From positions 1 to 64,000 of the forward strand of contig JAJPIZ010000002.1 of the NCBI GenBank assembly GCA_021324435.1: a stretch of DNA of 64,000 bases. The letters run 5' to 3'. Made by a program: the position numbers and the translations under genes. Source of the stretch: Anaerolineae bacterium (lineage in GTDB: Bacteria > Chloroflexota > Anaerolineae > Anaerolineales > Villigracilaceae). Below, piece after piece: positions 40,983-57,234 of this stretch (its first letter is position 1; each line of letters starts with the position of its first letter). The notes under the pieces are model-generated. The model ran no database searches and was not told the DNA's origin. It saw only the letters and a list, made by a program, of their open reading frames with translations.

Positions 40983-41022
40983 AAAGAGCCTCGCAGTGAA
41001 TAGACTGTGAGGCCCTTTCTTT
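40983..41022. terminator. Bidirectional terminator ending the sulfur/cytochrome operon
   Basis: GCCTCGCAGT, 6-base loop, ACTGTGAGGC (one G-U pair), with AAAGA before and CCTTTCTTT after. It serves the convergent diguanylate cyclase and YeeE genes. Confidence 0.8.
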
Positions 41023-41036
41023 GAAAATTCTTTATG

Positions 41037-42281
41037 TTAACCGCATCCGCCGCCGCTTTTATCACGTTTCAACTGCAACTTGATCTTTGGCGTGTATTGC
41101 AGATTTTCAAACTCGATGGGATTCGGGTCGGAACACAGATAACGGTCACCGAGCGCGGAGGGGAAGTAGTACGCGGGCCGGTCGCCGGTCGGATAGACTT
41201 TCAGCGTCTGGATGTTTGGATCGTCGGCGTTGAAGAACTTGATCCAGTTGTTGACGCCGCCTTCAAGGATGTAAACGTTCGGAATGCCTTCGGCGACCAG
41301 AATCTTCCACGCTGAAGTCGCATCGTCTTCATTGTTGCTCATCACCACATAGACTGTGTTGGTCGCGGCTTTTGCCAATAAATCAGGCAGGATGCTCTTG
41401 ATTTGGGTCAAGGGGACATTCTGCGCGCCGCGAATGTGGAACAGGTTGTAGTCCGCTTCAGAACGGACGTCGAGCATGATCAAGTTGATCTTTTGGTCAT
41501 AGATCGTCTTGAATAATTCAGCAGGGACGATCTGCACTTCGCGGTTGGCAAGCGCCGCTTCCTTGTCCGCGGCGATGCGCGCGTATTTTTGTTCAGTGGT
41601 GGGTTGGCCGATGAAAACGGTAGCCACTGCCAGGGCGAGAAGAACCGCCGCGCCGGCAATCCGCAGTTTGGGTTCTTTGCTCAGGTCACGTTTGCCAACG
41701 ATGCGTTCGAGTTGTTCTGCTCCCCAGAACATAAAGAGCGCCATCAAAACAACCAGCAGAACGACCACACCGGTGGGTAAATGGAGAACGTCAGGCAGCA
41801 ACACGCGGCCATAATAACCAGCGTTGTTGTACCAGCCATCGAAATATTTTTCGGTCTCGCTAAAGAGCCATGCGCCGACAAACCCGCCGCCGAGGAAGAA
41901 CATGCCGTCAATCTTGCCGGTGGAAGCGGAGGCAATCGAAGTGGTTGGGCAGAAGCCGCCGATGATAAAACCGACGCCCATGATGAGGCCGCCGAGGATG
42001 CCTGACGCCAGATACGTTGGATTGACCCAAACCTGACTAAAGTCCAGAATGCCGAGGCCGGCTGTGGCGAAAAGCAAGACCATCGCGACCGCGATCGCGG
42101 TGAACATGACTTTGAGCACGGTCATTTCTTTGAAGTAGAACTGAGCCGCCAATTTTTGAGAGTTACCAAAGCCGGACATCTCAAGCGTGAAACCGAAAGC
42201 GAAGCCGATTAAACCGAAGACGACATAGGTCCACGGGTTGGATGCGCTTGTTGCAGTAAATGATTGGAGTGGGAAGTTCAT
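41037..42281 (-). CDS. YeeE/YedE-type transporter fused to a rhodanese-like domain
   Basis: A 414-residue protein. Residues 17-225 contain about six membrane helices with 'GVGFIIGGFCPTTSIAS', the pore-cysteine motif (Cys111) of the YeeE/YedE (TsuA) family that imports thiosulfate or related sulfur species. Residues about 250-350 are a rhodanese fold ('LIMLDVRSEADYNLFHIRGAQNVPL' in pieces, 'YILEGGVNNW'), but where the catalytic Cys loop should be the sequence is 'VVMSNNEDD', so persulfide transfer by the usual route is not possible. The extreme C-terminus is 'SGGGCG', which may carry a replacement thiol. AGGAG precedes the ATG at 42281; upstream in-frame residues are encoded by a repeat. Last gene of the operon. 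Confidence 0.85.
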   Translation of the reverse strand: MNFPLQSFTATSASNPWTYVVFGLIGFAFGFTLEMSGFGNSQKLAAQFYFKEMTVLKVMFTAIAVAMVLLFATAGLGILDFSQVWVNPTYLASGILGGLIMGVGFIIGGFCPTTSIASASTGKIDGMFFLGGGFVGAWLFSETEKYFDGWYNNAGYYGRVLLPDVLHLPTGVVVLLVVLMALFMFWGAEQLERIVGKRDLSKEPKLRIAGAAVLLALAVATVFIGQPTTEQKYARIAADKEAALANREVQIVPAELFKTIYDQKINLIMLDVRSEADYNLFHIRGAQNVPLTQIKSILPDLLAKAATNTVYVVMSNNEDDATSAWKILVAEGIPNVYILEGGVNNWIKFFNADDPNIQTLKVYPTGDRPAYYFPSALGDRYLCSDPNPIEFENLQYTPKIKLQLKRDKSGGGCG

Positions 42282-42296
42282 GTTGTTCTCCTTGGT

Positions 42297-42380
42297 ATGT
42301 CGTTGCGAGGGCGTTCTTCCCGAAGCAATCTCCTCGTAAATGAGGGGCTTGCTCCGCGCCTGCGACGCTTGCAACGACAT
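42297..42380. repeat. Dispersed inverted repeat, family B
   Basis: Ends ATGTCGTTGC and GCAACGACAT are perfect inversions; inside is CGAAGCAATCTCC, also found in the copy at 57159-57234. It fills the gap between the two YeeE/YedE genes. Confidence 0.7.
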
Positions 42381-42386
42381 GCTGAC

Positions 42387-42941
42387 TCAGTTCCACATTT
42401 TCCTTACGAAATAGGCCAGCCCGTACGCGCCGCCGAAGATGGCGAACATCACGGCCCATGAGCCAGCCGAGAGCGTCGCGCCACCCGATAGCGCCTGGCC
42501 AGATGTGCATCCACGCGCCATACGTGCGCCGTATAGGAAGAGCACGCCGCCGAGGAAAGCGAACAACCAACGGGCGCGATTGGAAATATGAGGACCTTTG
42601 GTGGTTTCAAGTTTGACGCGATTCCCGATCTTGCCCGAGACGAATCCGCCGACAAGTGCGCCAAAGAACACAGGCACAATCCAATCGTCGAGCGGATTCT
42701 TGTCGCCGCCCGCCATCTTCAACAGGTAGGGTGTGCGATCAACATGTGAGGGCGCAATCTGATCTTCGATGAAGGCGTCAAGTCGGGCCGTGGCCCCAGA
42801 GGAGCCGAGTCCGTTTCCCGTGAGGAAGAACGCCAGGAACAATACAATGCCAAGCACCATTCCGCCAAAATATGGATGGACGTATGGCTTGGGTGAACTC
42901 ATCTTTTTTGCAGGAGCAGTTGTGGTCATATCATTCTCCAT
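42387..42941 (-). CDS. YeeE/YedE family membrane protein
   Basis: A 184-residue protein with about four to five helices and the second half-type motif of the family, 'ARGCTSGQALSGGATLSAGSW' split around Cys152. Together with the adjacent gene's 'GGFCPTT' half it could form a complete two-component sulfur-compound channel, as in paired YeeE/YedE systems. A second start at 42929 (MTTTAPAKK) with GGAG 6 bases upstream is possible. Confidence 0.85.
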   Translation of the reverse strand: MENDMTTTAPAKKMSSPKPYVHPYFGGMVLGIVLFLAFFLTGNGLGSSGATARLDAFIEDQIAPSHVDRTPYLLKMAGGDKNPLDDWIVPVFFGALVGGFVSGKIGNRVKLETTKGPHISNRARWLFAFLGGVLFLYGARMARGCTSGQALSGGATLSAGSWAVMFAIFGGAYGLAYFVRKMWN

Positions 42942-42946
42942 GATTC

Positions 42947-42969
42947 CCCTCTCCCTTAGGGAGAGGGGA
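42947..42969. repeat. Perfect hairpin CCCCTCTCCC / GGGAGAGGGG
   Basis: Ten-base perfect arms and a 3-base loop between the cytochrome b561 fusion gene and the YeeE/YedE gene, partly overlapping the latter's ribosome binding region. Similar words are common small repeats. Confidence 0.6.
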
Positions 42970-42999
42970 AAGGGGCGAGGGCTATTCTCTAATCGCTAC

Positions 43000-45759
43000 T
43001 CACTTCTTGCTTTTCCTTACTTCTTTCTTATCATGCACTTCCACTTCTTCATAACCGGTGACCATACCGCGTATCGCTTCGAGCGGAGTCGCGCCGGTGG
43101 TGGTCAGATACACATGGCCGATGATGAAGGCCGCGAAGACCCAGGCAATTAATGTGTGGAACGGTGCAAGAAGAGGCAAGCCGCCAAGAGCGTTTGCAAC
43201 CTGCGGCCACTTTTGCACACCCCACATCAAAAGTCCGGTCAGCATTTGAAGCGGCAGAAGCACGTTCAAGATTCCGAAATAGGTCATTTGCTGAAGCGGG
43301 TTCATTCGGTTATTGGGCGCTTTCGCGAACGGATGCTCTTCGCCTTTGAAGATTCCTTGAATGTAGTATTTGCTTTGCTCAATCGCGTCGTCGAAGAAAC
43401 CGTACGGACGAGGGATGAACTCGCGGATTTTTCCCGTGGTCAAGTGATAGAACAGCGACAGCGCGGCGTTGAGCACAAGCAATGCCGCCATCACGTTGTG
43501 GATTGTGACCATGTAGCGGAATGAAAAGATGCCGAACATATCTGGCCGATGGATGATCAGGCCTGTGAGTAGCAGGATGACGATCGCGATGGTCTGAAGC
43601 CAATGCCAGAAGCGACGATATGCCTCATACATATACACGCGCTCGGTTCTTTTCTGGACGCTTCGGCCTTGCTCGGCGCGGGCTTTAGCCTGCTTGCGCG
43701 CTGACAAATATCTGAGCGTCCCATGGCCGCCGACTCCCAGCACCACGGCAACGAAGAACAGCGCGCCGAACCAGTCAATCCATGGCACGCGGCTGTTGCC
43801 GAAGACATAGAGTTTGTCATTGGCAGGCGCGGCCTTGTAATACAGCGCGCCATCGGCGCCTTTGTAAATTTCGCCGCTCGAAACCACGTTATTGTCTTTC
43901 GCAAACTCAGGCATGACGCCATTCGGCGCGTAGTCTGCGAGTTTGACGGGCTGATTCAAACGCGAGTCGTTGCTATGGCAGGTCGCGCAATTGCTAATGG
44001 CATGATCGCCATCGGCGACATCGTGATTCAAACTATAAGGTTGAACCATTCCCTCGATGCGTGGATTCTTAAGTCCCAACGCGGCGAGTTGATCGGCAAC
44101 GACTTGTTGTTTTGCGTCGCTGTCAATCTTGAGTTCGTTGGCTTCGAGAGCGCCGTTGTTGTTCGAGTCGAAAGCGGAGAGGATGTCGGCTTTGTATTTG
44201 CCGTTTTGGAGGTAAGCCGCTTCCAGGTCCACGAGACGAACCGGACGTGTTCCGTTTACATCGTCATAAACCCAGTAATAGGTCGTGATCAGGTTGTACG
44301 GCGCGAGCAAATGACTGCCGTCTGTATTGGTGCGATCAAGTACGGCGGGTTCAAAGCCCGTTACGAGTGAATTGATCGAATTAGAATCGCCGTTCACACC
44401 TTTACAGACTTTAACTGGCTCGCCGTTCGTTGTAATGACCGTCCAATCATAGGATTGAATCGCGGGCGCGTAGGTCTGTGGGATGTGGCAGGTCTCGCAG
44501 GCCACATTCTTCATGTGTGTGTCAATGTACGGAAGCCAATCTGCATGCGCCTTTTGCGCGTCATGGCAGGAGTCACAGCGGCGCATCGTGCCCTTGAGTT
44601 GCGGCGCGACGTTGTATTGCGCGCTCTGTCCGCGTGCAAAATTGTGATCAGGATTTTTGAGATAATCGCCGATGTCGAGCCGCCGCGGATCGAAGACGAT
44701 ATTCGATGGGCGATTGGTTGCGTTTTCTTGGTAATAAGCCGGGTTGTTGATGGAGTAATGGCAATCGGTGCATTTGAGTCCGCGCTCGGCATGAATATCC
44801 CAGGCGCGATTGAGCGTGGATTTATTCGCAAGATTCATGCCCGAGTCGCTGATCTTCTGTGATGAAATTACCTGTCCAGTTGTAGCAGTTTGCGGATTAT
44901 CGAGTGAGCATCCTGTCAGTGTCAGTGGCGACTTGTCGGTATGAACTGCGCCATGACACTGCGCGCAGTTGGAATTGGTTGGGTCTTGAATGGCAACGAA
45001 ATCACTTTTCAGTTCGCCGTCTGTATCAAACGCTTCGGGTCTGTAATAATATCCGTTCATGCCAAGCGTCGAACGTTCGACGATGCCGGTGTTGATCAGC
45101 GTGGCGGTGCTGGCCCAATTAAACTCGCCGCGTTGAATCGCCGCGATGCGCGCCTCGTTGTTCGGTTGTGTGAGATGGCAGATGAAGCAGTCCATTTCCA
45201 TCGTGCCCGATTGAGACCAATCCCACGGAGTGGCTTGTCCGTTTTTGAGAATGGACGATTCGGGATTGCTGGCGTTCGGCGCGATGGAGACCAGCGGCGT
45301 TCCTTCGCGGGATGTTGTGGCGGGTCCGCCTCCGACGAGGCGACTGCCATTGAGCATGATCCACTCCGCAGTCGAGAGATCGAGGCGGCTGTCGCCTTTT
45401 TCTGAAAGATAACGATAGGTGAGCGGATCCCACTGACCGAAGAGACCGTTGCTCGAATTCATTGAGTCGGCAACGGGCTGATAAGCGGAAAGCCCGAGAT
45501 CAGAATGGAACGCGTGGCTGGCAATGAAATCTGTGTCGTGACATTGACCGCAAGTCTTCATCGTGGAGACGGCGTTGCCGCTGGCAAGGACGTTCTCGCC
45601 ATTCGCGTCCAGCAACGCAAAGGTGGGATGAATCGGAGAAACCTGCGAGGCCGGCTCGGCTTTACTCTGCGCAAGTACGCTTTGAATCCCAACCAGCGCG
45701 ATCAACAAAACGCCTGCCAGCACGAGAATGAGTTTTGTGTTGGGTTTGATGTTTTGCAT
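43000..45759 (-). CDS. Seven-heme cytochrome c fused to a cytochrome b561 membrane domain
   Basis: A 919-residue protein. N-terminal signal/anchor (about 10-30), then a large extracytoplasmic part with seven CxxCH heme c sites (Cys70, 191, 265, 330, 395, 421, 591). Between the sixth and seventh is a canonical EF-hand calcium loop at 531-542 (D-x-N-x-N-G-x-L-x-x-x-E). A helix at 663-680 is followed by a basic loop and a four-helix cytochrome b561-like domain (about 715-900) with heme b histidines around 719, 754, 868 and 882. Such a fusion can oxidise quinol in the membrane and pass electrons through the heme chain to a partner, here most likely the octaheme cytochrome encoded 9 bases upstream. 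The Lys-rich C-terminus is cytoplasmic. Confidence 0.88.
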   Translation of the reverse strand: MQNIKPNTKLILVLAGVLLIALVGIQSVLAQSKAEPASQVSPIHPTFALLDANGENVLASGNAVSTMKTCGQCHDTDFIASHAFHSDLGLSAYQPVADSMNSSNGLFGQWDPLTYRYLSEKGDSRLDLSTAEWIMLNGSRLVGGGPATTSREGTPLVSIAPNASNPESSILKNGQATPWDWSQSGTMEMDCFICHLTQPNNEARIAAIQRGEFNWASTATLINTGIVERSTLGMNGYYYRPEAFDTDGELKSDFVAIQDPTNSNCAQCHGAVHTDKSPLTLTGCSLDNPQTATTGQVISSQKISDSGMNLANKSTLNRAWDIHAERGLKCTDCHYSINNPAYYQENATNRPSNIVFDPRRLDIGDYLKNPDHNFARGQSAQYNVAPQLKGTMRRCDSCHDAQKAHADWLPYIDTHMKNVACETCHIPQTYAPAIQSYDWTVITTNGEPVKVCKGVNGDSNSINSLVTGFEPAVLDRTNTDGSHLLAPYNLITTYYWVYDDVNGTRPVRLVDLEAAYLQNGKYKADILSAFDSNNNGALEANELKIDSDAKQQVVADQLAALGLKNPRIEGMVQPYSLNHDVADGDHAISNCATCHSNDSRLNQPVKLADYAPNGVMPEFAKDNNVVSSGEIYKGADGALYYKAAPANDKLYVFGNSRVPWIDWFGALFFVAVVLGVGGHGTLRYLSARKQAKARAEQGRSVQKRTERVYMYEAYRRFWHWLQTIAIVILLLTGLIIHRPDMFGIFSFRYMVTIHNVMAALLVLNAALSLFYHLTTGKIREFIPRPYGFFDDAIEQSKYYIQGIFKGEEHPFAKAPNNRMNPLQQMTYFGILNVLLPLQMLTGLLMWGVQKWPQVANALGGLPLLAPFHTLIAWVFAAFIIGHVYLTTTGATPLEAIRGMVTGYEEVEVHDKKEVRKSKK

Positions 45760-45768
45760 GGCATCATC

Positions 45769-47211
45769 CTATTTCTGCTGGAAGCGTCCGCCCCAGATCA
45801 TTGGGTCGCCGGGATAACCGAGAGCTTTCCAGTCGAGTCGTCCGCTTTCGCTGTGGCAGTCATTACATTGCAAAGCATTGGCCGAAGGCTGAACCATATG
45901 TGTGGTCGGCCAATACATCCATGTTTCGGTGAAACCATATTGGCCGCTGTAATTCAGGCCCGCGTCCTGCGCGCCAAGTTGAAGGGCAGAGGCCCAATCG
46001 AAGGTTGTCCAAAAACCGCCTTTGCCAGCGGTGCGCGGCTGAAGCAGAATGTTGTTGACTGTGTCATATGGCTGTTTAGCCATGTGCAGTTTGAACGGCA
46101 TAATCTTTGCGGTTGGGTCGTTGATGTCGCCCGCGGGCTGGTCAATGACTACCGGCTTGCTTGGGTCAATCTTATCGCCCAATAGATAGCGATAGGAAAG
46201 ATTTCCGTTCGACCACATATAAGTCGGGATGTAATTCTTTTCGTAGATGAAGGAACCTTTGATCTTTAAGTATGTGAAGTGATCGTCTGTGCGGCCAGGT
46301 TGTCCCGCGGTTGACCAATCCCACACGACCTTGGTTGGGTCTTGTAAGGCCATGGCCGGAATATGGCAGGTCTGACAGGCAACCGACTTTGTATGGAAGT
46401 TCAGGCGGTCGTCTGTGTGTGGCGTTTGTGAATGGCAATTCGTGCATTGCACCTGTTCTGCGGGATCAATCTGATAGTTGTCTGCAACCATCTTGCCGAG
46501 GATTTGATGATCTTTGGTCTGATGGCAATCCGTGCATTGAAAATTCAACTTGCCCATGTGAATATCAATATCTTCGGAGGGGAAGTAGAGACTTTCATCC
46601 AGATCGCCGTGCTTGACGCCGTTACCGCCGCCGCCGTCAAAATGACAACGTCCACAATTTTGGCGCGTCGGCGCGCCGACCGATTTGGCGGCCGCGACCA
46701 AATCAACTCCGTCAGCAGGCAAGCCGTTCGCGCCTTTGCTGTACGAGGCTGTGTTCGCGTGGCAAACGAGGCAATCTACATTCAATGGATTATTGAAATC
46801 ATAGTTTGCATCCGACCAGCCGTAGCCTGCATGGCAGGTGGTGCATTTGACCCAGTTGCCTTGAATGCCGATGCAGAAGTTGTTAATTTGATTCTTTTTG
46901 CCAATCGTGACTGGCTGATCACGCCCTGGGGCGATCTCAGGTTTGGACTCCCAGGTGAAGTGCGTGGTGTGCATCACCTGATTGGCTGCATCGGGGTGAC
47001 AGGTGATACATTCCTTCGTCACATCCTGCGGTGTAGCGAACGGACCTTTGACAATATCTGTGTGATCCACGTGGACGGTTTTGTCGGGCACGTGCGCCCA
47101 CGGGTCGTCAACAGCCTTTGTGATCTTGGGCCAGAAGTAGGCCGTCGGTGCCGCGATCACTAGAATGATGCCGAGCAGTCCGAGGGTCCAAAAGGGTTTC
47201 GGTTTGTTCAT
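45769..47211 (-). CDS. Octaheme c-type cytochrome, tetrathionate reductase (OTR) family
   Basis: A 480-residue protein with an N-terminal membrane anchor (about 8-28) and eight CxxCH sites (near residues 68, 123, 147, 186, 226, 256, 279, 449). The first segment 'GPFATPQDVTKECITCHPDAANQVMHTTH' (in pieces), 'INNFCIGIQGNW', 'CTTCHAGYGW' and 'DCLVCHANTASYSKG' closely follow the Shewanella octaheme tetrathionate reductase, whose active-site heme has a lysine ligand; a lysine just after the third heme site here is a candidate. That family reduces tetrathionate, and also nitrite and hydroxylamine in vitro. GGAG lies 7 bases before the ATG at 47211. It follows the arsR-type gene by 22 bases. Confidence 0.9.
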   Translation of the reverse strand: MNKPKPFWTLGLLGIILVIAAPTAYFWPKITKAVDDPWAHVPDKTVHVDHTDIVKGPFATPQDVTKECITCHPDAANQVMHTTHFTWESKPEIAPGRDQPVTIGKKNQINNFCIGIQGNWVKCTTCHAGYGWSDANYDFNNPLNVDCLVCHANTASYSKGANGLPADGVDLVAAAKSVGAPTRQNCGRCHFDGGGGNGVKHGDLDESLYFPSEDIDIHMGKLNFQCTDCHQTKDHQILGKMVADNYQIDPAEQVQCTNCHSQTPHTDDRLNFHTKSVACQTCHIPAMALQDPTKVVWDWSTAGQPGRTDDHFTYLKIKGSFIYEKNYIPTYMWSNGNLSYRYLLGDKIDPSKPVVIDQPAGDINDPTAKIMPFKLHMAKQPYDTVNNILLQPRTAGKGGFWTTFDWASALQLGAQDAGLNYSGQYGFTETWMYWPTTHMVQPSANALQCNDCHSESGRLDWKALGYPGDPMIWGGRFQQK

Positions 47212-47233
47212 CCACATTCTCCTTATCGAAGCT

Positions 47234-47566
47234 TCATTTTTCTTCCATCAAGCCGGCTCGGTGTGCCAGCCGGTCGCGCATCACAGACCGGAGTATGTCG
47301 AGGGCTTGTATGAGGCGAGGGTCAGCGAGGTGGTAGGTGACAGTTGTGCCCTGACGGACGGTGTAGACCAAGTCGCGCTCACGCAAAACTTTGAGATGCC
47401 GTGAGGTAGTGGGCTGGATCACTTGCAATTCGTTGGCCAGTTCCGTTACATTGCGCGGACCTTCAGCAAGCGCGTAAAGGATAAGAAGCCGCGTGGGGTC
47501 TGAGAGCGCAAAACAGAAGTCCGCTTCCAGTTGTGAGATTTCCTGTGCCAAGGCTTGAGTGACCAT
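47234..47566 (-). CDS. ArsR-family transcription regulator
   Basis: A 110-residue winged-helix repressor: 'DFCFALSDPTRLLILYALAEG', 'NVTELANELQVIQPTTSRHLKVLRERDLV' in pieces and the wing 'YTVRQGTTVTYHLAD'. Only one cysteine is present, so neither the classical CxC metal site nor the two-cysteine persulfide switch of SqrR/BigR is complete. The start at 47566 (MVTQALAQ) fits the family; an upstream frame extends into the promoter. It is the first gene of the cytochrome/YeeE operon and probably represses it. Confidence 0.9.
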   Translation of the reverse strand: MVTQALAQEISQLEADFCFALSDPTRLLILYALAEGPRNVTELANELQVIQPTTSRHLKVLRERDLVYTVRQGTTVTYHLADPRLIQALDILRSVMRDRLAHRAGLMEEK

Positions 47567-47579
47567 CTTTAGACCTGCC

Positions 47580-47606
47580 TTTATACGCATAAACGCATAT
47601 ATGCAA
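47580..47606 (-). promoter_or_regulatory. Promoter and palindromic operator of the arsR-cytochrome operon
   Basis: On minus, TATAAA (47585-47580) is preceded by TTGCAT (47606-47601). The perfect palindrome GCATATATGC (47595-47604) overlaps the likely -35, with another GCAT half 8 bases away. Confidence 0.5.
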
Positions 47607-47732: not shown

Positions 47733-48341
47733 ATGGAACTAAAACATGACGCCATGTCGGTGGATGTGGGGGTGCGGTTGAGGGAACTGCGTGAGGCGCG
47801 TAACATTTCCATGCGCGGGCTGGCGACCAAAAGTGGATTGTCCGCGAATGCTCTCAGCATGATCGAGCGCGGCAAAACATCCCCTTCGGTGAGTACACTA
47901 TATAAATTGGCCGATGCTCTTGGTGTGCCGATCACAGAATTCTTCGGGCCGCCTGTCGAAAAAGTCAATGCGATTTTGGTGAAGGCCGACGAACGGACGC
48001 GCGTCCCTTTTGCGCGCGGTGTGTGGGAAGGCCTGGGAGGGGAGAAGTTCGAGGGGCGGGTCGAACCGTTTGTTCTCACGCTGGAGAGCGGAGCGGCCAG
48101 CGGTCCGCATATGATGATTCATAGCGGACATGAATTTGTCTTTTGCCTGCGCGGACAGTTGGAATATCTGGTTGAGAAAAACGTCTACCAGTTGGAGGCA
48201 GGCGATAGTCTGTTGTTCGCTGCTCAACTGAATCATCGTTGGCGGAATCCGGGCAACACTGTCACAAATGCGCTTATTGTTCTTTCCGGCTATTCGGAAG
48301 GCGAACAACCGCACGCCATGCACTGGAAAAAAGGGGAATAA
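47733..48341 (+). CDS. XRE-family regulator with cupin sensor domain
   Basis: A 202-residue protein. Helix-turn-helix at about 10-65 ('VRLRELREARNISMRGLATKSGLSANALSMIERGKTSPS' in pieces), then a cupin domain at about 120-195 ('HSGHEFVFCLRGQLEYLVEKN', 'AGDSLLFAAQLNHRW'). This architecture, as in PuuR, senses a small ligand in the cupin. GGAGGG precedes the ATG. It is divergent from the arsR operon; a strong terminator follows. The target is unknown. Confidence 0.92.
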   Translation: MELKHDAMSVDVGVRLRELREARNISMRGLATKSGLSANALSMIERGKTSPSVSTLYKLADALGVPITEFFGPPVEKVNAILVKADERTRVPFARGVWEGLGGEKFEGRVEPFVLTLESGAASGPHMMIHSGHEFVFCLRGQLEYLVEKNVYQLEAGDSLLFAAQLNHRWRNPGNTVTNALIVLSGYSEGEQPHAMHWKKGE

Positions 48342-48361
48342 AATCACTGGTCTTGGTAAAT

Positions 48362-48395
48362 GAAAAGTCGCCCGTCACATTGACGAGCGACTTTA
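48362..48395. terminator. Terminator between convergent XRE and SufT-like genes
   Basis: AAAGTCGC(C)CGTCA, 4-base loop, TGACG(A)GCGACTTT: a long stem with one mismatch and A/T ends on both sides. Confidence 0.8.
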
Positions 48396-48416
48396 ATTCT
48401 TTTACCGACACAGCCG

Positions 48417-48767
48417 CTAAGTGTACATCCCCCAATCCAGCGCGGATGGATCTTCCATCATGGAGAAATCCCAGACGTCCATGCCCATCTCAATGGTTAC
48501 CGGCATGTTCAATGCCTCGACCGCTTTTTGCTTGGTCATCTCGATCATTGCCGGACCATATGGACAAAATGGCGTGGTCAGGATCATTTTCATGCGCGCC
48601 ATATTGTTTTCGATGGCGAGATCGCGCACCAGCCCAAGCTGAATGATGTTCATCCCGATTTCAGGGTCAACAACCTCGGCGAGTTTGGCGCGCGCAGTTT
48701 CGACCAATTCAGGATGCGTGTCGTGGAGCGTCCAGTGAATTTGATTGACGGTTGGTTCCTCGGCCAT
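48417..48767 (-). CDS. MIP18/SufT-like iron-sulfur assembly factor
   Basis: A 116-residue protein of the MIP18 (DUF59, PaaD/SufT-like) family: 'EVVDPEIGMNIIQLGLVRDL' in pieces near 31-50 and 'TTPFCPYGPAMIEMTK' near 81-96 with the functional Cys. Such factors help mature Fe-S proteins. It lies 20 bases after sufR on the same strand and faces the suf operon across about 2.7 kb, supporting a role in the same pathway. Confidence 0.87.
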   Translation of the reverse strand: MAEEPTVNQIHWTLHDTHPELVETARAKLAEVVDPEIGMNIIQLGLVRDLAIENNMARMKMILTTPFCPYGPAMIEMTKQKAVEALNMPVTIEMGMDVWDFSMMEDPSALDWGMYT

Positions 48768-48787
48768 TTCTAATCCTTTGACTTTTC

Positions 48788-49411
48788 TTAACTGGCGCTA
48801 TGCGCGGGTTGCACAACATAGGTACAATGCGCGCCGCCGTTTAAAACACACTGCACCTTTTCGGCGGGAACGGCCAGCATCTTTGAAATCAGAGTCTGAT
48901 CTACAGTGCAAACTTCAGGATGGTTCACGCCAATTTGATAATACGGGCAGGTGATCTCATGGATTTGGTATTGTTCGCCTTTCTTTTCCCACTCGACCGT
49001 GAAGCCCTCTTCTGCGAGTAGAGATTGGACAAAATCGAGACGCTCTTCCATGCTCAAGCCCTGCATCTGATCTGCGTAATCGCTGGCCAGGTCTTCTGCA
49101 ATCTGGTTGAATAATTTGCTGACGACCGGTGCGGGCATGGTCTCTTTCATTTGAGTTAGCAGGCGAGTGGTCAGGCGCAGATAGCGCGTCGGGAATTTTT
49201 CCATCCCATCCTCGGTCAAGATATAGACGAGGCGCGGGCGCCCAACGCCATGCCGTTCCTCCTCGGCCGCAACCAATCCTTCGACTTGTAAGTTTGTCAA
49301 ATGATGGCGAACCGAGATGGGGTTAATCCCAACCGCCTCCGCCAATTCGTTGATAGTGCGGCGAGGCTGACGGTGCAGTGTCTGTAAAATTCGATCACGC
49401 GTGCTTTTCAT
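48788..49411 (-). CDS. sufR: SufR-type iron-sulfur-dependent repressor
   Basis: A 207-residue regulator. Winged helix at about 1-70 ('TINELAEAVGINPISVRHHLTNLQVEGLV' in pieces, 'RPRLVYILTEDG'). The C-terminal part has four cysteines in 'CPYYQIG', 'EVCTVDQ', 'VQCVLNGGAHCTY', the ligand pattern of SufR, which binds an Fe-S cluster and represses suf genes while clusters are plentiful. Its promoter shares a sequence with the suf promoter at 51335. The start at 49411 fits the family; a longer frame would overlap the promoter. Confidence 0.9.
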   Translation of the reverse strand: MKSTRDRILQTLHRQPRRTINELAEAVGINPISVRHHLTNLQVEGLVAAEEERHGVGRPRLVYILTEDGMEKFPTRYLRLTTRLLTQMKETMPAPVVSKLFNQIAEDLASDYADQMQGLSMEERLDFVQSLLAEEGFTVEWEKKGEQYQIHEITCPYYQIGVNHPEVCTVDQTLISKMLAVPAEKVQCVLNGGAHCTYVVQPAHSAS

Positions 49412-49454
49412 GCAAAACCTTCTTCCCGAGACGGGACAACCTGTAACGTGCGTG

Positions 49455-49500
49455 AGTATACTCGCCCACGTATGACCTGTCAATATTATAGATAATTATC
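49455..49500 (-). promoter_or_regulatory. sufR promoter with putative SufR operator
   Basis: On minus: TTGACA (49483-49478), 17-base spacer, TATACT (49460-49455). Directly upstream of and overlapping the -35 is AATTATCTATAATATTGACA (49497-49478). Fifteen of these 20 bases match the equivalent place in the sufC promoter. Confidence 0.7.
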
Positions 49501-49658
49501 ATAAATATCCTCTCTGCCGAAGCATTTCCTGCTGGATAGCGGGAAGCGCGAGATATTCAAAGGGGCTTCCGGATCAAAGTAACGCTTCCGGCGCGGACCT
49601 TTGAGCGGGCGCGGCAAAGTTGGAAGAAGAATCTCCGAGAATTGTCTCCCGATTCGGC

Positions 49659-49686
49659 TTGAAAAATTTTCCGCCTGTTATACAAT
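49659..49686 (+). promoter_or_regulatory. Promoter of the Asp-box protein gene
   Basis: TTGAAA (49659-49664), 16-base spacer, TACAAT (49681-49686). Confidence 0.6.
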
Positions 49687-49741
49687 AATTTCAATGGGTA
49701 AAGCCAATTATCCATAATTCCAAAGGAAAGATGGAGGAGCT

Positions 49742-51181
49742 ATGCAGTCAGTTCTTCGCACGAATCGTTCGTGGTTCATCTTGCTTGCATCTGTTATCGT
49801 TGCCGCACTGATATTCTTTGGTTTGAATGAGTGGCGGCTTGAGCAGATCGAGCAGGGGTTCGAAGGCAAAGCCAAAGTGCGTGATAGCGGGCAAGTGTCT
49901 CAGGAGGTAATCAACTCCTCGGCGCTGGCGCCCGCTTTTTTGTCCGGTCCCGCCGCGCCCGGAGGCTTCACTCCACAATTGCGTTTAGGTTTTCACGTGG
50001 ACAATGAATGGGAGCCTGCCATCGCGTCCGATCGTTTTGGCCACGTTTATGTTTTGTATCCACAATATGGCGGCGTCCCCGGTTGCCCGACTTGTTACAG
50101 CCCGACCATGATTTTACAAATCAGCAGCGATCATGGTCAGACGTGGGCCTCGCCGACGGTGATCTATCCTGCTGGCTCGACCAGTTATCAGGTCGACGCG
50201 CAGATCGCTGTTGATCCGGTGGATGGTCGCACAGTGTATGCCGCGTGGTTGCAGAACAACAAATCCGACATCCTGGTTGCGAAGTCTACCGATTTCGGCG
50301 CGACGTGGTCGTTTGTTCTCGCGGATCATACGAACGCTGGCACCGACAAACCCATCCTTGCCGTGCGCGGACAGGACGTGTATGTGTCTTACAACCACAG
50401 CCAAACCGCATACGTGACGTATTCGCATGATGGCGGCGCGACCTTTACCGAAGTCAAGATGAATCAAAACGCCAAACTTGGCTGGTCGCTGGGCGGCGGC
50501 GGGACAGTCACGCCGAACGGAAATGTTTATTTCTCATGGGATGGTTATGAAGGCAGTGGCGGCGCAAAAGGAAAGGTGAATCTATACGTCAGCAAATCCA
50601 CAGATGGCGGCTTGACGTGGACAACGACTTTACTGGATGTTTCTTCGTCTCCGCCCGATTGCTCGGCCTTCAATTGCGGATGGGCCTTTCTCGGCGCCGC
50701 GATTGCAATGACCTCTGATTCATCTGGGAATCTCTATGCATTGTGGAACGCAGGCTCAACCGCTAAAGGCCCGGAGCGAATCTACTTTGCCAAGTCCACT
50801 GATGGCGGCGCGACTTGGTCTATGAAACAAGATATGTCCACCGCGCCCGCGGGGACGCACCATGCCTTCCCGGCCATCGCGGCAACTGGCAACGGTGACG
50901 TCCGCATCGCGTGGATGGACGCGCGCGCGGCCAACGGCGGGATGGATCGCTGGAATGTCTATTATCGGCGATCCACCAATGGCGGTGCGACCTGGTCGTC
51001 CGAGGTGGATGTCTCAACGTATGTGAGCGGGTACGGTTACATTTTCACAGATGGTTATCGCTTCCCGTTCGGTGATTACTTCGAGATGGATATTGACGAA
51101 AACGGGACCGCGCATCTTGTGTGGGGCGAGGGAGATAACTACGATTCGCCCGGCTCGATTTGGTATTCGCAAGGGAAGTAA
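49742..51181 (+). CDS. Secreted Asp-box (BNR/sialidase-like) beta-propeller protein
   Basis: A 479-residue protein with an N-terminal membrane anchor or signal (about 10-28). Six Asp-box repeats of the form S-x-D-x-G-x-T-W/F can be read ('SSDHGQTW', 'STDFGATW', 'SHDGGATF', 'STDGGLTW', 'STDGGATW', 'STNGGATW'), giving a six-bladed sialidase-type propeller outside the cell. The arginine triad and nucleophile of true sialidases are not recognisable, so binding or another glycosidase-like role is possible. GGAGG precedes the ATG. Confidence 0.85.
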   Translation: MQSVLRTNRSWFILLASVIVAALIFFGLNEWRLEQIEQGFEGKAKVRDSGQVSQEVINSSALAPAFLSGPAAPGGFTPQLRLGFHVDNEWEPAIASDRFGHVYVLYPQYGGVPGCPTCYSPTMILQISSDHGQTWASPTVIYPAGSTSYQVDAQIAVDPVDGRTVYAAWLQNNKSDILVAKSTDFGATWSFVLADHTNAGTDKPILAVRGQDVYVSYNHSQTAYVTYSHDGGATFTEVKMNQNAKLGWSLGGGGTVTPNGNVYFSWDGYEGSGGAKGKVNLYVSKSTDGGLTWTTTLLDVSSSPPDCSAFNCGWAFLGAAIAMTSDSSGNLYALWNAGSTAKGPERIYFAKSTDGGATWSMKQDMSTAPAGTHHAFPAIAATGNGDVRIAWMDARAANGGMDRWNVYYRRSTNGGATWSSEVDVSTYVSGYGYIFTDGYRFPFGDYFEMDIDENGTAHLVWGEGDNYDSPGSIWYSQGK

Positions 51182-51199
51182 TGTTAGAAAGCTAGAAAG

Positions 51200-51245
51200 A
51201 AAGAGCAACTTGGACTCTTGATGTATAGAGTCCGGGTTGCTCTTT
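51200..51245 (+). terminator. Rho-independent terminator after the Asp-box gene
   Basis: AAAGAGCAAC-TT-GGACTCT, loop, AGAGTCC-GG-GTTGCTCTTT, a long two-part stem ending in T residues. Confidence 0.9.
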
Positions 51246-51320
51246 ATATTCGAAAAACCATCATCGCCAAAACAAGAGGCCGCGGACTTAGTTTTGTGGG
51301 ATCAAGCGAATTTACTAGAA

Positions 51321-51363
51321 AAATATCATAAATATTGACTTTTCCCGCTGACCCTGCTATAAT
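51321..51363 (+). promoter_or_regulatory. suf operon promoter with putative SufR operator
   Basis: TTGACT (51335-51340), 17-base spacer, TATAAT (51358-51363). AAATATCATAAATATTGACT (51321-51340) overlaps the -35 and matches the sufR promoter at 15 of 20 positions. Leader to the sufC start is about 90 bases. Confidence 0.75.
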
Positions 51364-51457
51364 GCCGCCGATTGGCAGGCAAAATAATTGCCCCTGCCTA
51401 TCGTGTAACCAATTCAGGTCTGCCATTATTTCAGTATTTTTCAAGGAGCAAACCCGC

Positions 51458-52234
51458 ATGTCGCAACTCGAAATCAAGGACCTTCACGTCAGCATTGACG
51501 GCAAGGAAATATTGCAGGGCGTCAATCTCGTCGTTAAACAGGGTGAAATCCACGCCATCATGGGCCCGAACGGCACAGGCAAGTCTACGCTGGCCTACAC
51601 CTTGATGGGACATCCCAACTACACTGTGACCAAAGGCGAGGTAATTTTTAAAGATCAGAACATTCTCGAGCTCGAAGCCGATGAACGCTCTCGGCTTGGC
51701 ATGTTCCTTGCTTTTCAATATCCGGTTGCAATTCCGGGTGTGACCGTGGCGAACTTCCTGCGCAGTGCCATCAATGCCCGCCGCCGCGCGGTCAACAAAG
51801 AAGACAAGGGCATGCCCATCCCGGAGTTCCGCAAACTGCTCAAAGAGAAAATGGATTTGCTCAAGATGGACAATGCCTTCGCGGGACGTTATCTCAATGA
51901 TGGCTTTTCGGGCGGAGAAAAGAAACGGGCTGAGATTTTGCAGATGGCAACCCTCCGACCGGAGATCGCTATTTTGGATGAGACCGATTCAGGTCTGGAC
52001 ATTGACGCGTTGCGCGTCGTCGCCGATGGAGTCAACGCTCTTACCGGACCTGAACTCGGCGTGCTCGTCATCACGCATTATCAACGTCTGTTGAATTACA
52101 TCAAGCCGCACTTCGTCCATGTGATGATGGGCGGGCGCATCGTCGAATCGGGCGGACCCGATCTGGCTCTCTCGCTCGAAGAGCATGGCTACGATTGGAT
52201 CCGTGAAAAAGAAAAAACTGAAGAGGCCGCCTGA
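51458..52234 (+). CDS. sufC: Fe-S assembly ATPase SufC
   Basis: A 258-residue ABC-type ATPase of the SufBCD scaffold. Walker A 'GPNGTGKST', signature '[15 protein letters not shown]', Walker B '[16 protein letters not shown]', switch His in 'ITHYQRL'. ATP hydrolysis drives shape changes in SufBC2D during cluster assembly. Start at 51458 has AAGGAG upstream. First gene of the operon. Confidence 0.96.
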
Positions 52235-52284
52235 CGGCGGCGATATTCGATTATTCGATTATTCGAATTTCGAGTATCGAATAA
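52226..52284 (+). repeat. Two hairpins between sufC and sufB
   Basis: GCCGCC-TGAC-GGCGGC (52226-52241) covers the sufC stop codon; TTATTCGAT (52251-52259) pairs perfectly with ATCGAATAA (52276-52284), with ATTCGATT words repeated between. The second ends just before the sufB ribosome binding site (ACGGAGA). Confidence 0.6.
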
Positions 52285-52295
52285 CGGAGACCCTT

Positions 52296-53714
<1,419 letters not shown>

Positions 53715-53718
53715 TTTC

Positions 53719-53797
53719 GTGTCACTCTGAGCCGCGGAGTGGCGAAGAGTCTCGAAAGTCTCGAGGTCGAGATGCTTCGCTCCGCTCAGGATGACAC
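53719..53797. repeat. Dispersed inverted repeat, family A (diverged), between sufB and sufD
   Basis: Ends GTGTCACTCTGAGC and GCTCAGGATGACAC are near-perfect inversions. It begins 5 bases after the sufB stop codon and ends just before the sufD start. Confidence 0.7.
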
Positions 53798-53804
53798 TTC
53801 ATGG

Positions 53805-55151
53805 ATGAGAATAATGCAGGAAAAACCAAAGGTAGTTGTTTCAAAGACTCGACGGGCTGAAACCGCCGCAAAGGATTTCGCCTTCACCCAGGCGGACATC
53901 CCCGCCGCGAGCGGAGCCATCGCATCATATCGGACGAAAGCCTGGGACGCGTTTAAAAAACAGACTCTCCCCGATGTGACTCTCGAGGCCTGGCGTCGTA
54001 CTGACATCCACGCGATGCCCCTCGACTCGTTCAAACTTCCCGCGGAAGGCGCATACAAAGATTTGCCGTCCGTGCCTGCCGATCTTCTCAAACCGCTCGT
54101 CGCCAATCAGCACGGCGGACAAATTGTTTTGCTTCCCGGCGGATCGAAGATTGACTTGGACGAGTCGCTCGCGAAACAAGGCGTCATCTTCACGGACTTG
54201 AAGACCGCGCAGAAAAACTATCCTGAAATCGTTGCCAGGATTCTCGGTCAAACAGTCAATGTAGAAGAAGGCAAATTCTCCGCGCTGGCTGGGGCGCTGG
54301 CGCAAAATGGAATCTTGTTGTACGTACCGAAGAATGTGAAAGTTGAACAGCCGCTCCACAGCATTTTGTGGGGACCGGGTGCGGGTTTGGCTCACATTTC
54401 GCACTTGCTCGTGCTCGTTGACGAAGGCGCGAGCGTGACCTACGTTCACGAGTCGGGTTCGCCGAACGAATCCAACGATGCTTTGCACGCCGGCATTGTC
54501 GAGATCAAGGTCATGCAGGGCGCGAGCTTCAAGTTTGTCGAATTGCAATCGTGGGGCAGGCATGTTTGGAATTTTACTCACGAGCGCATCCGCGTCGAAC
54601 GCGACGGCAACCTCGATTGGATCTTCGGCGCGATCGGCTCGAAGTTGACAAAGAATTTCTCCGAACTCGACCTGGTCGGCGAAGGCGCGACGGGGCGCAT
54701 GTCCGGTTTTTATTTCACGGACGGCACACAGCATCTCGATCACGATACGCAACAGAACCACCTCGCCCCGCACACCACCAGCGACCTGCTCTTCAAGGGC
54801 GCGCTCAAGGGGAAGAGTCGCTCGGTTTGGCAGGGCATGATCTACGTCGCGAAAGGCGCGGAAAAAACTGACGGCTATCAAGCCAACCGCAACCTGGTCC
54901 TGGAAGAGGGCGCTCGCGCTGATTCAATTCCGGGGCTGGAAATCCTTGCCGATGATGTCCGTTGCACGCATGGAGCGACCGTCGGCAGGATGGAGCAGGA
55001 GCCGCTTTTTTATCTCAAGTCGCGCGGCATTCCGCAGAAGGAAGCCGAGAAATTGGTGGTCGAAGGTTTCTTCGATCCCATCTTCCAGCGGATTCCGTTT
55101 GAAGGTGTACGTGAACGGTTCCAGGAATACATTGCCAGCAAAATGGAATAG
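53805..55151 (+). CDS. sufD: Fe-S assembly protein SufD
   Basis: A 448-residue SufD. Core strands such as 'LHSILWGPGAGLAHISHLLVLVDEGASVTYVHE' (in pieces) and the C-terminal 'CTHGATVGRMEQEPLFYLKSRGIPQKEAEKLVVEGFFDPIFQRIPF' (in pieces, with the conserved His in THGAT) are diagnostic. The start is uncertain: 53805 (MRIMQEKP) or 53814 (MQEKPKVV). Longer frames would translate the repeat at 53719-53797 and are rejected. No good ribosome binding site is visible, so coupling across the repeat may matter. Confidence 0.93.
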   Translation: MRIMQEKPKVVVSKTRRAETAAKDFAFTQADIPAASGAIASYRTKAWDAFKKQTLPDVTLEAWRRTDIHAMPLDSFKLPAEGAYKDLPSVPADLLKPLVANQHGGQIVLLPGGSKIDLDESLAKQGVIFTDLKTAQKNYPEIVARILGQTVNVEEGKFSALAGALAQNGILLYVPKNVKVEQPLHSILWGPGAGLAHISHLLVLVDEGASVTYVHESGSPNESNDALHAGIVEIKVMQGASFKFVELQSWGRHVWNFTHERIRVERDGNLDWIFGAIGSKLTKNFSELDLVGEGATGRMSGFYFTDGTQHLDHDTQQNHLAPHTTSDLLFKGALKGKSRSVWQGMIYVAKGAEKTDGYQANRNLVLEEGARADSIPGLEILADDVRCTHGATVGRMEQEPLFYLKSRGIPQKEAEKLVVEGFFDPIFQRIPFEGVRERFQEYIASKME

Positions 55152-55154
55152 TTC

Positions 55155-55183
55155 TTGAAGTGAATAATGAAATTCACTATAGT
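55155..55183 (+). promoter_or_regulatory. Internal promoter with palindrome upstream of the H1-like gene
   Basis: TTGAAG (55155-55160), 17-base spacer, TATAGT (55178-55183). The spacer is occupied by AGTGAAT-AATGAA-ATTCACT (55159-55178), a perfect 7-base-arm palindrome, a typical operator position. Confidence 0.55.
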
Positions 55184-55239
55184 ATTAGTGGCGGTGCGGA
55201 AATTCTGCAAGTAATTTTGTAATGAAAGTAGGCATTCAA

Positions 55240-55884
55240 ATGACGATCAAGAAAAGAGTAGCACGCAAAGCGGCCAAACAAAAAACGACGCGGAGAGTTG
55301 TCTCCAAGACTCGTTCGAAAGCCGTTGTCAAAAAAGCGCCTGCTAAACGAGCGCTGAAGTCTCGCAAAACAGCCGCAAAAGTGGTTGCAAAGGCTCCAGT
55401 GACCAAAACTCCGGTCAGGCCGGCCCCGACCCCGAGACCCGCGCCGAAATTGATGGCGACTCTGCCTGCAGCTGCATTGCGCATGGAAACTCCACGGCCG
55501 CGACTCAAAACCAAAGTTCACGCGGTAAGGCCGGCGCGTACCTCTTCTGCCGTAGCGGGAGAACGCCGCGCCTTTCGCGTGGGGCGTGTTGCGCAATTCG
55601 CTTACATGAAGGCGCCCGGCATTGAGGACGCTTTTGAGGTCGGCGACACAGTTGAGGTATTTTGTGATCACGAAAAAAATAACGACCGCGTGCGCGGCTG
55701 GATCAAAGGCATTGTCGTTCAAGTGGACAACAAGCTGGTCGCGGTGCAGTTCCGCTCCAATGTTTTCCTCACCGATGGCTGGATGGTGCCCGACCGCATT
55801 CTGTGGTATCCGCTGACGTCGGATCAAATCCGCTCGGTCTCCACCGGTAAAAAATCCGCCAAGAAGGAAATCCCCGACTATTAG
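55240..55884 (+). CDS. Histone-H1-like basic protein with compact C-terminal domain
   Basis: A 214-residue protein of two parts. Residues about 1-110 are rich in Lys, Arg, Ala, Pro and Thr with 'KKAPAKRALKSRKTAAKVV'-like runs (compare H1-type bacterial nucleoid proteins), then a Pro-rich hinge. Residues about 118-205 are a folded domain with hydrophobic beta-strands: 'DAFEVGDTVEVFCDHE', 'RVRGWIKGIVVQVDNKLVAVQF' in pieces, 'TDGWMVPDRILWYPL', suggestive of a small SH3/Tudor-like barrel. No Suf family is recognised. It sits between sufD and sufS, 10 bases before the latter. An ATG at 55222 is an alternative start. It may bind DNA or RNA through its tail. Confidence 0.85.
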   Translation: MTIKKRVARKAAKQKTTRRVVSKTRSKAVVKKAPAKRALKSRKTAAKVVAKAPVTKTPVRPAPTPRPAPKLMATLPAAALRMETPRPRLKTKVHAVRPARTSSAVAGERRAFRVGRVAQFAYMKAPGIEDAFEVGDTVEVFCDHEKNNDRVRGWIKGIVVQVDNKLVAVQFRSNVFLTDGWMVPDRILWYPLTSDQIRSVSTGKKSAKKEIPDY

Positions 55885-55926
55885 AAAGTAAACGTGAATC
55901 AACCAACCGGTTCCCGCCTCCTGAAT

Positions 55927-57153
55927 ATGACATTAGATATCGCTCGTATCCGCCAGGATTTTCCAATCCTAAATCGCGAAGTCCGGCCTGGGGTCAAGGT
56001 CGTTTATCTTGACTCCACAGCCACTTCGCAAAAGCCGCTTGCTGTCATCGAGGCGATGAATGATTTCTATCATCGCTTCAATGCGAATATTCATCGCGGA
56101 GTTCACACCCTCGCGGAGGAAGCCACGGCGATGTACGAGCAGGCGCGCGTCAAGATTGCCAAGTTCATCAACGCGCGCAATCCGCATGAGATCATTTATA
56201 CGCGCAACACGACCGAGTCGATCAATCTCGTTGCATACACATGGGCGCGCGCCAATCTCAAATCGGGCGACCTCGTCATCTTGACCGAGATGGAGCATCA
56301 CAGCAATCTCGTTCCGTGGCACATGCTGGCGGCGGAACGCGGCGTCCAACTCGAATTCATCCCGGTGACGGAAAATGGTTTGCTGGATCTCGAGACGTAC
56401 AAATCGCTTCTTGCCCGGACCCCGAAACTGGTCTCGTTTACGCACATGTCCAACGTCCTCGGCACGATCAACCCTGCCGCGGAGATCATCAAGCTGGCGC
56501 ACGACGCGGGCGCGATCACTGTTGTGGATGGCGCTCAATCCGTCCCGCATTTGAAAGTGGATGTCCACGCCCTCGACGCGGACTTTTATGCGTTCTCCGC
56601 GCACAAGATGTGCGGCCCCACCGGCATCGGCGCGTTGTATGGTAAGTCTGCACTGCTGGATGCCATGCCTCCATTCCTCGGCGGCGGCGATATGATCAAG
56701 GAAGTTAAACTGCGTTCATTTCGCCCGAACACGGTTCCGGCCAAGTTTGAAGCGGGCACACCCGCCATCGCGGAGTCGGTCGGTTTCGGCGCGGCAGTGG
56801 ATTATCTAACTGGCATCGGTATGGACAAAGTAGCCGCGCATGAGCATGAGATCACTGAGTACGCGTTGGAGCGCCTTGAGGAAATTCCCGGCGTGAAAGT
56901 CTTCGGTCCATCCGCAGATAAAAAAGGCGGAGTGGCCTCCTTCACTTTTGACGGTGTTCACCCACACGACGTGGCGCAGATTTTAGATCGAGACGGAATC
57001 GCTGTCCGCGCCGGGCATCACTGCGCACAGCCTTTGCATGAGAAATTTGGAATTCCGGCAACGACCCGCGCCAGTTTCTACCTGTATTCGACGAAAGACG
57101 AAGTGGACAAATTGGTGGAAGGAATTTACAAGGTCAAGAAGGTGTTTGGTTAA
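55927..57153 (+). CDS. sufS: Cysteine desulfurase SufS
   Basis: A 408-residue type II cysteine desulfurase. PLP lysine at about 227 in 'FSAHKMCGPTG', catalytic Cys at about 366 in 'RAGHHCAQP', and 'EMEHHSNLVPW' near 122-132. It takes sulfur from cysteine and passes it to SufU. The start at 55927 (MTLDIARIR) matches family N-termini; a GTG at 55894 is possible and would put the gene 10 bases after the preceding one. Confidence 0.95.
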   Translation: MTLDIARIRQDFPILNREVRPGVKVVYLDSTATSQKPLAVIEAMNDFYHRFNANIHRGVHTLAEEATAMYEQARVKIAKFINARNPHEIIYTRNTTESINLVAYTWARANLKSGDLVILTEMEHHSNLVPWHMLAAERGVQLEFIPVTENGLLDLETYKSLLARTPKLVSFTHMSNVLGTINPAAEIIKLAHDAGAITVVDGAQSVPHLKVDVHALDADFYAFSAHKMCGPTGIGALYGKSALLDAMPPFLGGGDMIKEVKLRSFRPNTVPAKFEAGTPAIAESVGFGAAVDYLTGIGMDKVAAHEHEITEYALERLEEIPGVKVFGPSADKKGGVASFTFDGVHPHDVAQILDRDGIAVRAGHHCAQPLHEKFGIPATTRASFYLYSTKDEVDKLVEGIYKVKKVFG

Positions 57154-57158
57154 CATTC

Positions 57159-57234
57159 CGTCGTTGCGAGGAGCCGCGAAGCGGCGACGAAGCAATCTCC
57201 ACGTTTGAAGTAGATTGTTTCGCTCGCAATGACG
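57159..57234. repeat. Dispersed inverted repeat, family B, between sufS and sufU
   Basis: Ends CGTCGTTGCGAG and CTCGCAATGACG are inverted with one mismatch; it contains CGAAGCAATCTCC as in the copy at 42297-42380. It fills nearly the entire gap before sufU. Confidence 0.7.

Follow-up and report, generated by a model that had tools for sequence, protein, structure and literature searches.

A conserved operon that appears to connect respiratory electron transport with sulfur chemistry by means of an octaheme enzyme and a channel with a reactive-cysteine tail

The OTR of Shewanella, an octaheme c cytochrome, reduces tetrathionate (PMC11024163) and also nitrite and hydroxylamine (PMC11024163, PMC11237559). 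MmcA, a seven-heme conduit related to OTR, lacks the catalytic heme and its lysine (PMC11024163). According to the accessible part of its description, an Ignavibacteria MAG pairs an OTR with a b561 protein, predicted as a terminal reductase (PMC7509429), and in lucinid symbionts a divergent SoxY gene adjoins otr (PMC11237559, which also cites the swinging-arm work). YeeE imports thiosulfate (PMC11582611). These two settings of OTR, with b561 in one MAG and beside a divergent SoxY, were what we found in the open-licence literature, and no description of the operon analyzed here was found there. It is made of known parts in a conserved arrangement that we did not find described in open-licence papers, in agreement with an earlier note on this DNA, whose author knew of no such system.

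The window (the whole 64-kb stretch of an Anaerolineae contig that was analyzed) carries the operon as five genes on the minus strand, running from 47566 to 41037: arsR, an OTR gene, a heptaheme-cytochrome b fusion and two YeeE-type channel halves. All members of the head-to-tail set listed in the earlier note are present on that strand, with the starts of arsR and of the last gene trimmed:

47582..47599, minus strand: putative ArsR operator (motif scan of the window and of relatives' loci)
47234..47566, minus strand: ArsR/SmtB-type repressor, 110 aa (HTH_5, HTH_metalloreg over its cut-off, homologue alignment)
45769..47217, minus strand: OTR-family octaheme c cytochrome, membrane-anchored (TIGR04315, 1SP3, alignments, tree)
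46873-46875, minus strand: codon of the active-site C115 of OTR (alignment)
46612-46614, minus strand: codon of the catalytic K202 of OTR (alignment)
43000..45759, minus strand: heptaheme c/cytochrome b fusion (Ni_hydr_CYTB, weak PhsC and MmcA matches, hhalign, alignment)
42387..42941, minus strand: PmpA-like channel half, the C-terminal half of YeeE/YedE (Sulf_transp profile positions 176-309, alignment)
41037..42281, minus strand: PmpB-like half (N-terminal half) with a TM helix, a rhodanese-fold domain and a GGGCG end (Sulf_transp, Rhodanese, alignment)
41040..41054, minus strand: GGGCG C-terminal arm, with its Cys codon at 41043-41045 (homologue alignment)
40988-41013, no strand assigned: terminator-like hairpin in the gap between the operon and a convergent GGDEF gene (hairpin scan, number not above chance)

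The arsR gene probably starts at 47566, with an open frame that reaches upstream to 47653, and the last gene probably starts at 42281 instead of 42380. The apparent start of this last ORF lies too far upstream because of an 84-bp inverted-repeat element between the two channel genes (42297-42380), which has 13-nt inverted ends and whose end sequence is found again at 57160. A perfect 13-nt hairpin without a T run lies in the gap that separates the fusion gene from the PmpA-like one (42944-42970). Promoter and terminator scans of the window returned no more sites than scans of shuffled sequence. The promoter previously placed near 47600 was not seen by the sigma-70 scan, and the conserved ArsR operator occupies 47582-47599 instead; the terminator placed near 41000 has a counterpart in a terminator-like hairpin at 40988-41013, of a kind that shuffles yield at least as often. 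Positions 47733-57153 hold a divergent XRE-cupin regulator followed by SufT-like and SufR-like genes and a SUF operon, and in several relatives of the same family similar-sized, co-clustering genes likewise adjoin the operon.

A search for the gene order elsewhere, which the earlier note had recommended, found the set conserved as a unit, with the four structural genes ordered alike in Chloroflexota and several other phyla. The fusion is matched at more than 700 bits in 69 of 396 genomes of the class. In all 29 loci from relatives besides the window, OTR adjoins the fusion in the same order and both channel genes follow within the reach of the contig, so the clustering is not due to chance, an explanation that we reject since the order is kept in many phyla. 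Among longer regions, the order of the four structural genes is kept in 20 of 20, with arsR upstream in 16. Three genomes of the same genus do not have the fusion; the operon is therefore patchy, as expected of an accessory trait. When OTR was scanned for in about 85,000 species genomes, the best 80 loci included the operon, whole or contig-cut, in Planctomycetota, KSB1, Calditrichota, Neomarinimicrobiota, Gemmatimonadota and Lysobacterales, as well as in a deltaproteobacterium, an Acidimicrobiia bin and others. Among the same 80 loci, a single Latescibacterota and a second deltaproteobacterium carry OTR and the cytochromes with no recognized channel in the DNA covered, and these neighbors were not found beside the OTRs of Shewanella, Ferrimonas, Desulfuromonas and Nitrospirota. 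The operon OTRs form a single block of 40 rows in a 74-row tree (100/100), apart from stand-alone OTRs; the OTR of locus L111, which is accompanied by a split fusion, falls outside it.

Some loci differ in composition. A second, divergent OTR-like gene stands beside the main operon at L126 6467-8759, L129 9740-12055 and L131 4972-7185, with a small cytochrome b in L126, and a shorter variant (L212 5053-9019) consists of OTR, a separate cytochrome b, PmpA and a PmpB-arm protein ending GGCS, without the heptaheme part.

The first cytochrome has 482 aa and eight CXXCH motifs and scores 566 bits against TIGR04315, some 190 bits above the cut-off of 375, which bears out the eight heme c sites and the OTR type ascribed to it; it is the single protein of its genome over that cut-off. 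It matches the Shewanella oneidensis OTR structure 1SP3 with E=1e-139 and 51% identity, and counting along this alignment pairs K202 with Shewanella K153, C115 with C64 and N112 with N61. K202 and all eight CXXCH motifs are invariant in an alignment of 15 homologues, and C115 and N112 are invariant as well. We take K153 to be the ligand of the active-site heme, and C64 and N61 are presumably close to the active site. The "highly conserved Lys" of the OTR family (PMC11024163) agrees with K153 as the ligand. At the sequence level, then, the operon OTR keeps the lysine ligand of the active-site heme, the absence of which the earlier note would have counted against its proposal. Both OTR and the fusion carry a hydrophobic anchor at the N-terminus and two homologous OTRs resemble lipoproteins (LAAC), so both proteins should sit outside the cytoplasmic membrane.

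The second cytochrome, of 919 aa, has the predicted seven heme c sites and heme b membrane domain, in the form of seven CXXCH motifs and a Ni_hydr_CYTB domain of the cytochrome b561 type. Its best cytochrome b model, with a weak match, is the thiosulfate reductase PhsC. Against the MmcA family TIGR04314 it reaches 44 bits (E 1.5e-11), below the equivalog cut-off of 250, and is a relative of that family and not a member. The soluble half was aligned to OTR by hhalign (97.8%), with fusion hemes 3-6 falling on OTR hemes 4-7 and a Val at the position of the Lys ligand; by this alignment, the soluble portion is distantly related to OTR/MmcA and lacks that ligand. That the absent heme is exactly OTR heme 2 is only partly supported, the N-terminal hemes not having aligned. 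We infer that the catalytic OTR may receive its electrons from the fusion as a non-catalytic, OTR-like conduit. The AlphaFold model of the fusion (pLDDT 60) was too poor for a structure search. A possible calcium site is the stretch of residues 531-542, which reads FDxNxxGxLxxxEL in the manner of an EF-hand loop and keeps its F, D, G, E and L unchanged across 15 homologues.

With 70.6 and 58.6 bits, the channel halves clear the Pfam gathering score of 27 for Sulf_transp (PF04143). Membership of TsuA (NF052577, NF041049) was rejected because scores are far below the equivalog cut-off (for NF052577, 31 and 22.5 bits where 400 are required), and weak matches to the YedE/FdhT selenium families are also far below cut-offs. 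In the homologue alignment each half has one invariant Cys, C145 in the invariant RGCTSG motif of the PmpA-like half and that of the invariant FCP motif in the PmpB-like half, and these lie near TsuA Cys91 and Cys293 by profile coordinates only. The AlphaFold model of the rhodanese-bearing channel half is weak (pLDDT 70). The rhodanese domain of the last protein scores 54 bits against PF00581 (cut-off 22), and its model matches rhodanese structures with a best E of 1.6e-3. The column of the catalytic Cys is M, V, I, A or L in 47 of 47 homologues, and an active rhodanese is thereby rejected; the two sulfur-channel halves and the rhodanese fold given in the earlier note hold. The helix before this domain has a positive cytoplasmic flank (KRDLSKEPK), which by the positive-inside rule would place the domain outside the cytoplasm.

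The last protein and its homologues end in GG(x)CG, in which the Cys is present in 42 of 47 aligned rows and replaced by TGA in 5. This tail, the most telling trait of the system, is absent from the earlier note, as are the ArsR operator and the Neomarinimicrobiota loci described below. The TGA rows come from four genomes of two phyla, with the frame GGG-TGA-GGC-stop exactly at the Cys codon. About 18-19 nt 3' of each TGA there is a hairpin with a 3-nt loop beginning with G (GGC, GGT, GTT), namely AGCCGCA-GGC-TGCGGCT, ACCGCC-GGT-GGCGGT, ACCGCC-GTT-GGCGGT and GCTGTC-GTT-GACAGC. The stems of these SECIS-like hairpins vary among relatives by compensating pairs; taken alone, the stability of the hairpins is not above that of shuffles (z -1.35 and -1.02). 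tRNA-Sec was above the gathering score in all four TGA-arm genomes, and SelB above the cut-off in both of those searched. Because a TGA at a conserved Cys coincides with a SECIS-like hairpin and a tRNA-Sec, the TGA of these four relatives probably encodes selenocysteine. Sec in the window's own arm was rejected, its codon being TGC. Redox-active residues commonly show such a Cys/Sec exchange, and here it marks the arm residue as the one that probably does the chemistry. The swinging arm of SoxY is GGCGG, and by analogy we consider it likely that the arm here is a covalent sulfur carrier. No SoxY domain or SoxZ was found among the operon proteins, for which Pfam gives Sulf_transp, Rhodanese and DUF6691 only. 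The accessible part of a review of prokaryotic selenoproteins lists a TIGR04315 protein that contains Sec and a YeeE family whose Sec lies in GUxSG, and no Sec in a GGGUG tail among its entries.

The ArsR protein has a single Cys, C18, invariant in 17 homologues. Sulfur-responsive SoxR bridges two Cys (PMC11582611); with one Cys, this ArsR has no means of forming such a bridge inside a single chain. Its scores against BigR (49.6 bits, cut-off 155) and TsoR (58.7 bits, cut-off 115) are below the equivalog cut-offs, and membership of BigR was rejected on this ground. The putative operator, TATGCGTTTATGCGTATA on the minus strand, is separated from the downstream arsR start by 15 bp and belongs to a family with the consensus TATTCG-N6-CGAATA. 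The pattern TATNCG-N6-CGNATA occurs once in the 64 kb and in none of 100 shuffles, and, with at most one mismatch allowed, 30 of 33 ArsR loci, some from Neomarinimicrobiota among them, have the motif no more than 160 bp from ArsR. ArsR weakly resembles TsoR, and a rhodanese arm (L205 9720-10355) weakly resembles TsoB, both of the Tso three-selenoprotein operon, to which a distant link is possible.

In Neomarinimicrobiota, the module occurs split into PmpA, PmpB and a separate rhodanese-arm gene ending GGC-COOH, directly behind genes for a Tat-signal molybdoenzyme, an iron-sulfur protein and an NrfD-type subunit, within contig reach. The order PhsA-PhsB-NrfD-PmpA-PmpB-rhodanese arm was seen in loci L203-L211 and L213-L215. 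The molybdoenzymes score 484, 480 and 453 bits against PhsA NF012032, below the cut-off of 694, with PhsA still the best family each time. The channel-arm module is thus found alongside two quinone-linked enzymes of unrelated kinds, for one of which the nearest family is a sulfur family. This is the strongest reason to think that the OTR here acts on sulfur. Because the arm module also accompanies non-OTR enzymes, its presence does not oblige OTR to use arm-bound sulfur. The window's own genome encodes COX1 (a heme-copper oxidase), NuoG, formate dehydrogenase, a QrcB/ActB-like protein and TusA. In this assembly, which is 97% complete, none of the three molybdopterin proteins is Nar, Nap, Ttr or Phs/Psr, and no NIR_SIR protein was found. 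The genome is therefore unlikely to supply nitrite of its own making, and from its content we regard a nitrite-to-ammonium role as improbable; the heme-copper oxidase makes an oxidative direction possible.

We suggest, at somewhat better than even chances, that the operon encodes a sulfur redox system linked to quinones, its arm ferrying sulfur between the channel and OTR. The cytochrome b part of the fusion would oxidize menaquinol, and electrons would pass through the fusion's seven hemes, an OTR-derived conduit apparently without a catalytic heme, to the octaheme OTR. The PmpA/PmpB channel would lie beside OTR, with the outside rhodanese-fold domain as a non-catalytic platform for the flexible GG(x)CG arm. 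The Cys or Sec of the arm would bind sulfur covalently, as in SoxY, and shuttle it among an outside sulfur compound, the Lys-heme/Cys active site of OTR and the two channel cysteines, which would hand sulfane sulfur to cytoplasmic TusA. ArsR would repress the operon via TATTCG-N6-CGAATA until released by a sulfur or redox signal. The quinone-linked sulfur system proposed in the earlier note gains support from the conserved gene unit and, judged from sequence, the Lys ligand; import of the reduced product and sensing of the sulfur compound by the regulator, also proposed there, may belong to it, and we infer its partner contacts, quinone type, substrate and direction. A sulfur compound is very likely the substrate of OTR instead of a nitrogen compound, and a net reductive direction is fairly probable. 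More tentatively, and a little short of an even chance, this could be a distinct sulfur redox system in which a channel with its own Cys/Sec arm docks onto unrelated quinone-linked enzymes (octaheme OTR or a Phs/Psr-type molybdoenzyme) that act on arm-bound and not on free sulfur.

OTR might instead, much as the earlier note has it, reduce free tetrathionate or another sulfur oxyanion by quinol, with YeeE importing the freed thiosulfate and the arm being only an accessory or redox-sensing tail. The family membership of OTR, tetrathionate reduction by the Shewanella enzyme (PMC11024163), thiosulfate import by YeeE (PMC11582611) and the conserved gene order all fit; yet the invariant Cys tail, its exchange for Sec and the loss of the rhodanese Cys would be left unexplained, the channel halves fall far short of TsuA, and we consider this unlikely. 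It is also somewhat unlikely that the system runs oxidatively, the arm loading sulfane sulfur or sulfide and OTR oxidizing it, with electrons entering the quinone pool via cytochrome b in a Sox- or Sqr-like manner. Cytochrome b proteins of the fusion's kind run in both directions, the arm is SoxY-like, and COX1, NuoG and the QrcB/ActB-like subunit of the same genome could take electrons to oxygen. The redox range of OTR, too, resembles the -100 to -450 mV of MmcA (PMC11024163). Against this, the characterized activities of OTRs are reductive, the nearest cytochrome b model is PhsC, and the alternative core in Neomarinimicrobiota is nearest to PhsA, although enzymes of the Psr type may be able to work in reverse.

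A nitrite or hydroxylamine reductase, beside which the sulfur channel would be encoded for some other reason, is very improbable: the Shewanella OTR does reduce both compounds (PMC11024163, PMC11237559), but channel genes accompany the operon OTR clade across many phyla, the genome has no Nar, Nap or NIR_SIR, and the module also occurs with a PhsA-like enzyme. Handling of selenium, tellurium or metalloids, by Se-oxyanion reduction or detoxification, would suit an ArsR-type regulator, Sec and the weak matches to the YedE/FdhT selenium families and to TsoR of a multi-selenoprotein operon; those matches are far below cut-offs, however, most arms have Cys and not Sec, and the partner can be PhsA-like, so that this is hardly probable at all. 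If sulfur does travel on the arm between channel and OTR, a covalent-carrier route, until now known mainly from Sox oxidation, would be added to the quinone-linked sulfur metabolism of uncultured Chloroflexota and Neomarinimicrobiota. By tying one OTR clade to a Cys/Sec-armed sulfur channel, the operon also makes the natural substrate of OTR directly testable.

Among known systems, the Shewanella oneidensis OTR (SO4144, PDB 1SP3, TIGR04315) shares with the operon OTR the eight CXXCH motifs and the equivalents of K153, C64 and N61, but it has no fusion or channel neighbors, whereas the operon OTRs form a separate clade tied to the cytochrome b fusion and the sulfur channel. MmcA of Methanosarcina is, like the fusion, related to OTR and without the catalytic Lys; its partners are Rnf and methanophenazine, whereas the fusion domain is part of one protein with a membrane cytochrome b and has a catalytic OTR as its partner. 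The Ignavibacteria cluster has the same OTR/b561 pairing, but in the accessible part of its description the channel, arm and regulator are not mentioned (PMC7509429). SoxY shares with the arm a Gly-flanked Cys at the extreme C-terminus, outside the cytoplasm; unlike SoxY, the arm here extends from a rhodanese domain that is itself part of a channel protein in the membrane, and Sec variants exist. PmpA/PmpB, SoxT and TsuA of the YeeE/YedE family are two-half channels with one conserved Cys per half, as here (PMC11582611), whereas the PmpB half of the operon adds an extra helix, a dead rhodanese domain on the outside and the GG(x)CG arm. The Phs/Psr-type operon of Neomarinimicrobiota has the same channel-plus-arm module, with its GGC-COOH tail, but there a molybdenum enzyme replaces OTR and the rhodanese arm is a separate gene.
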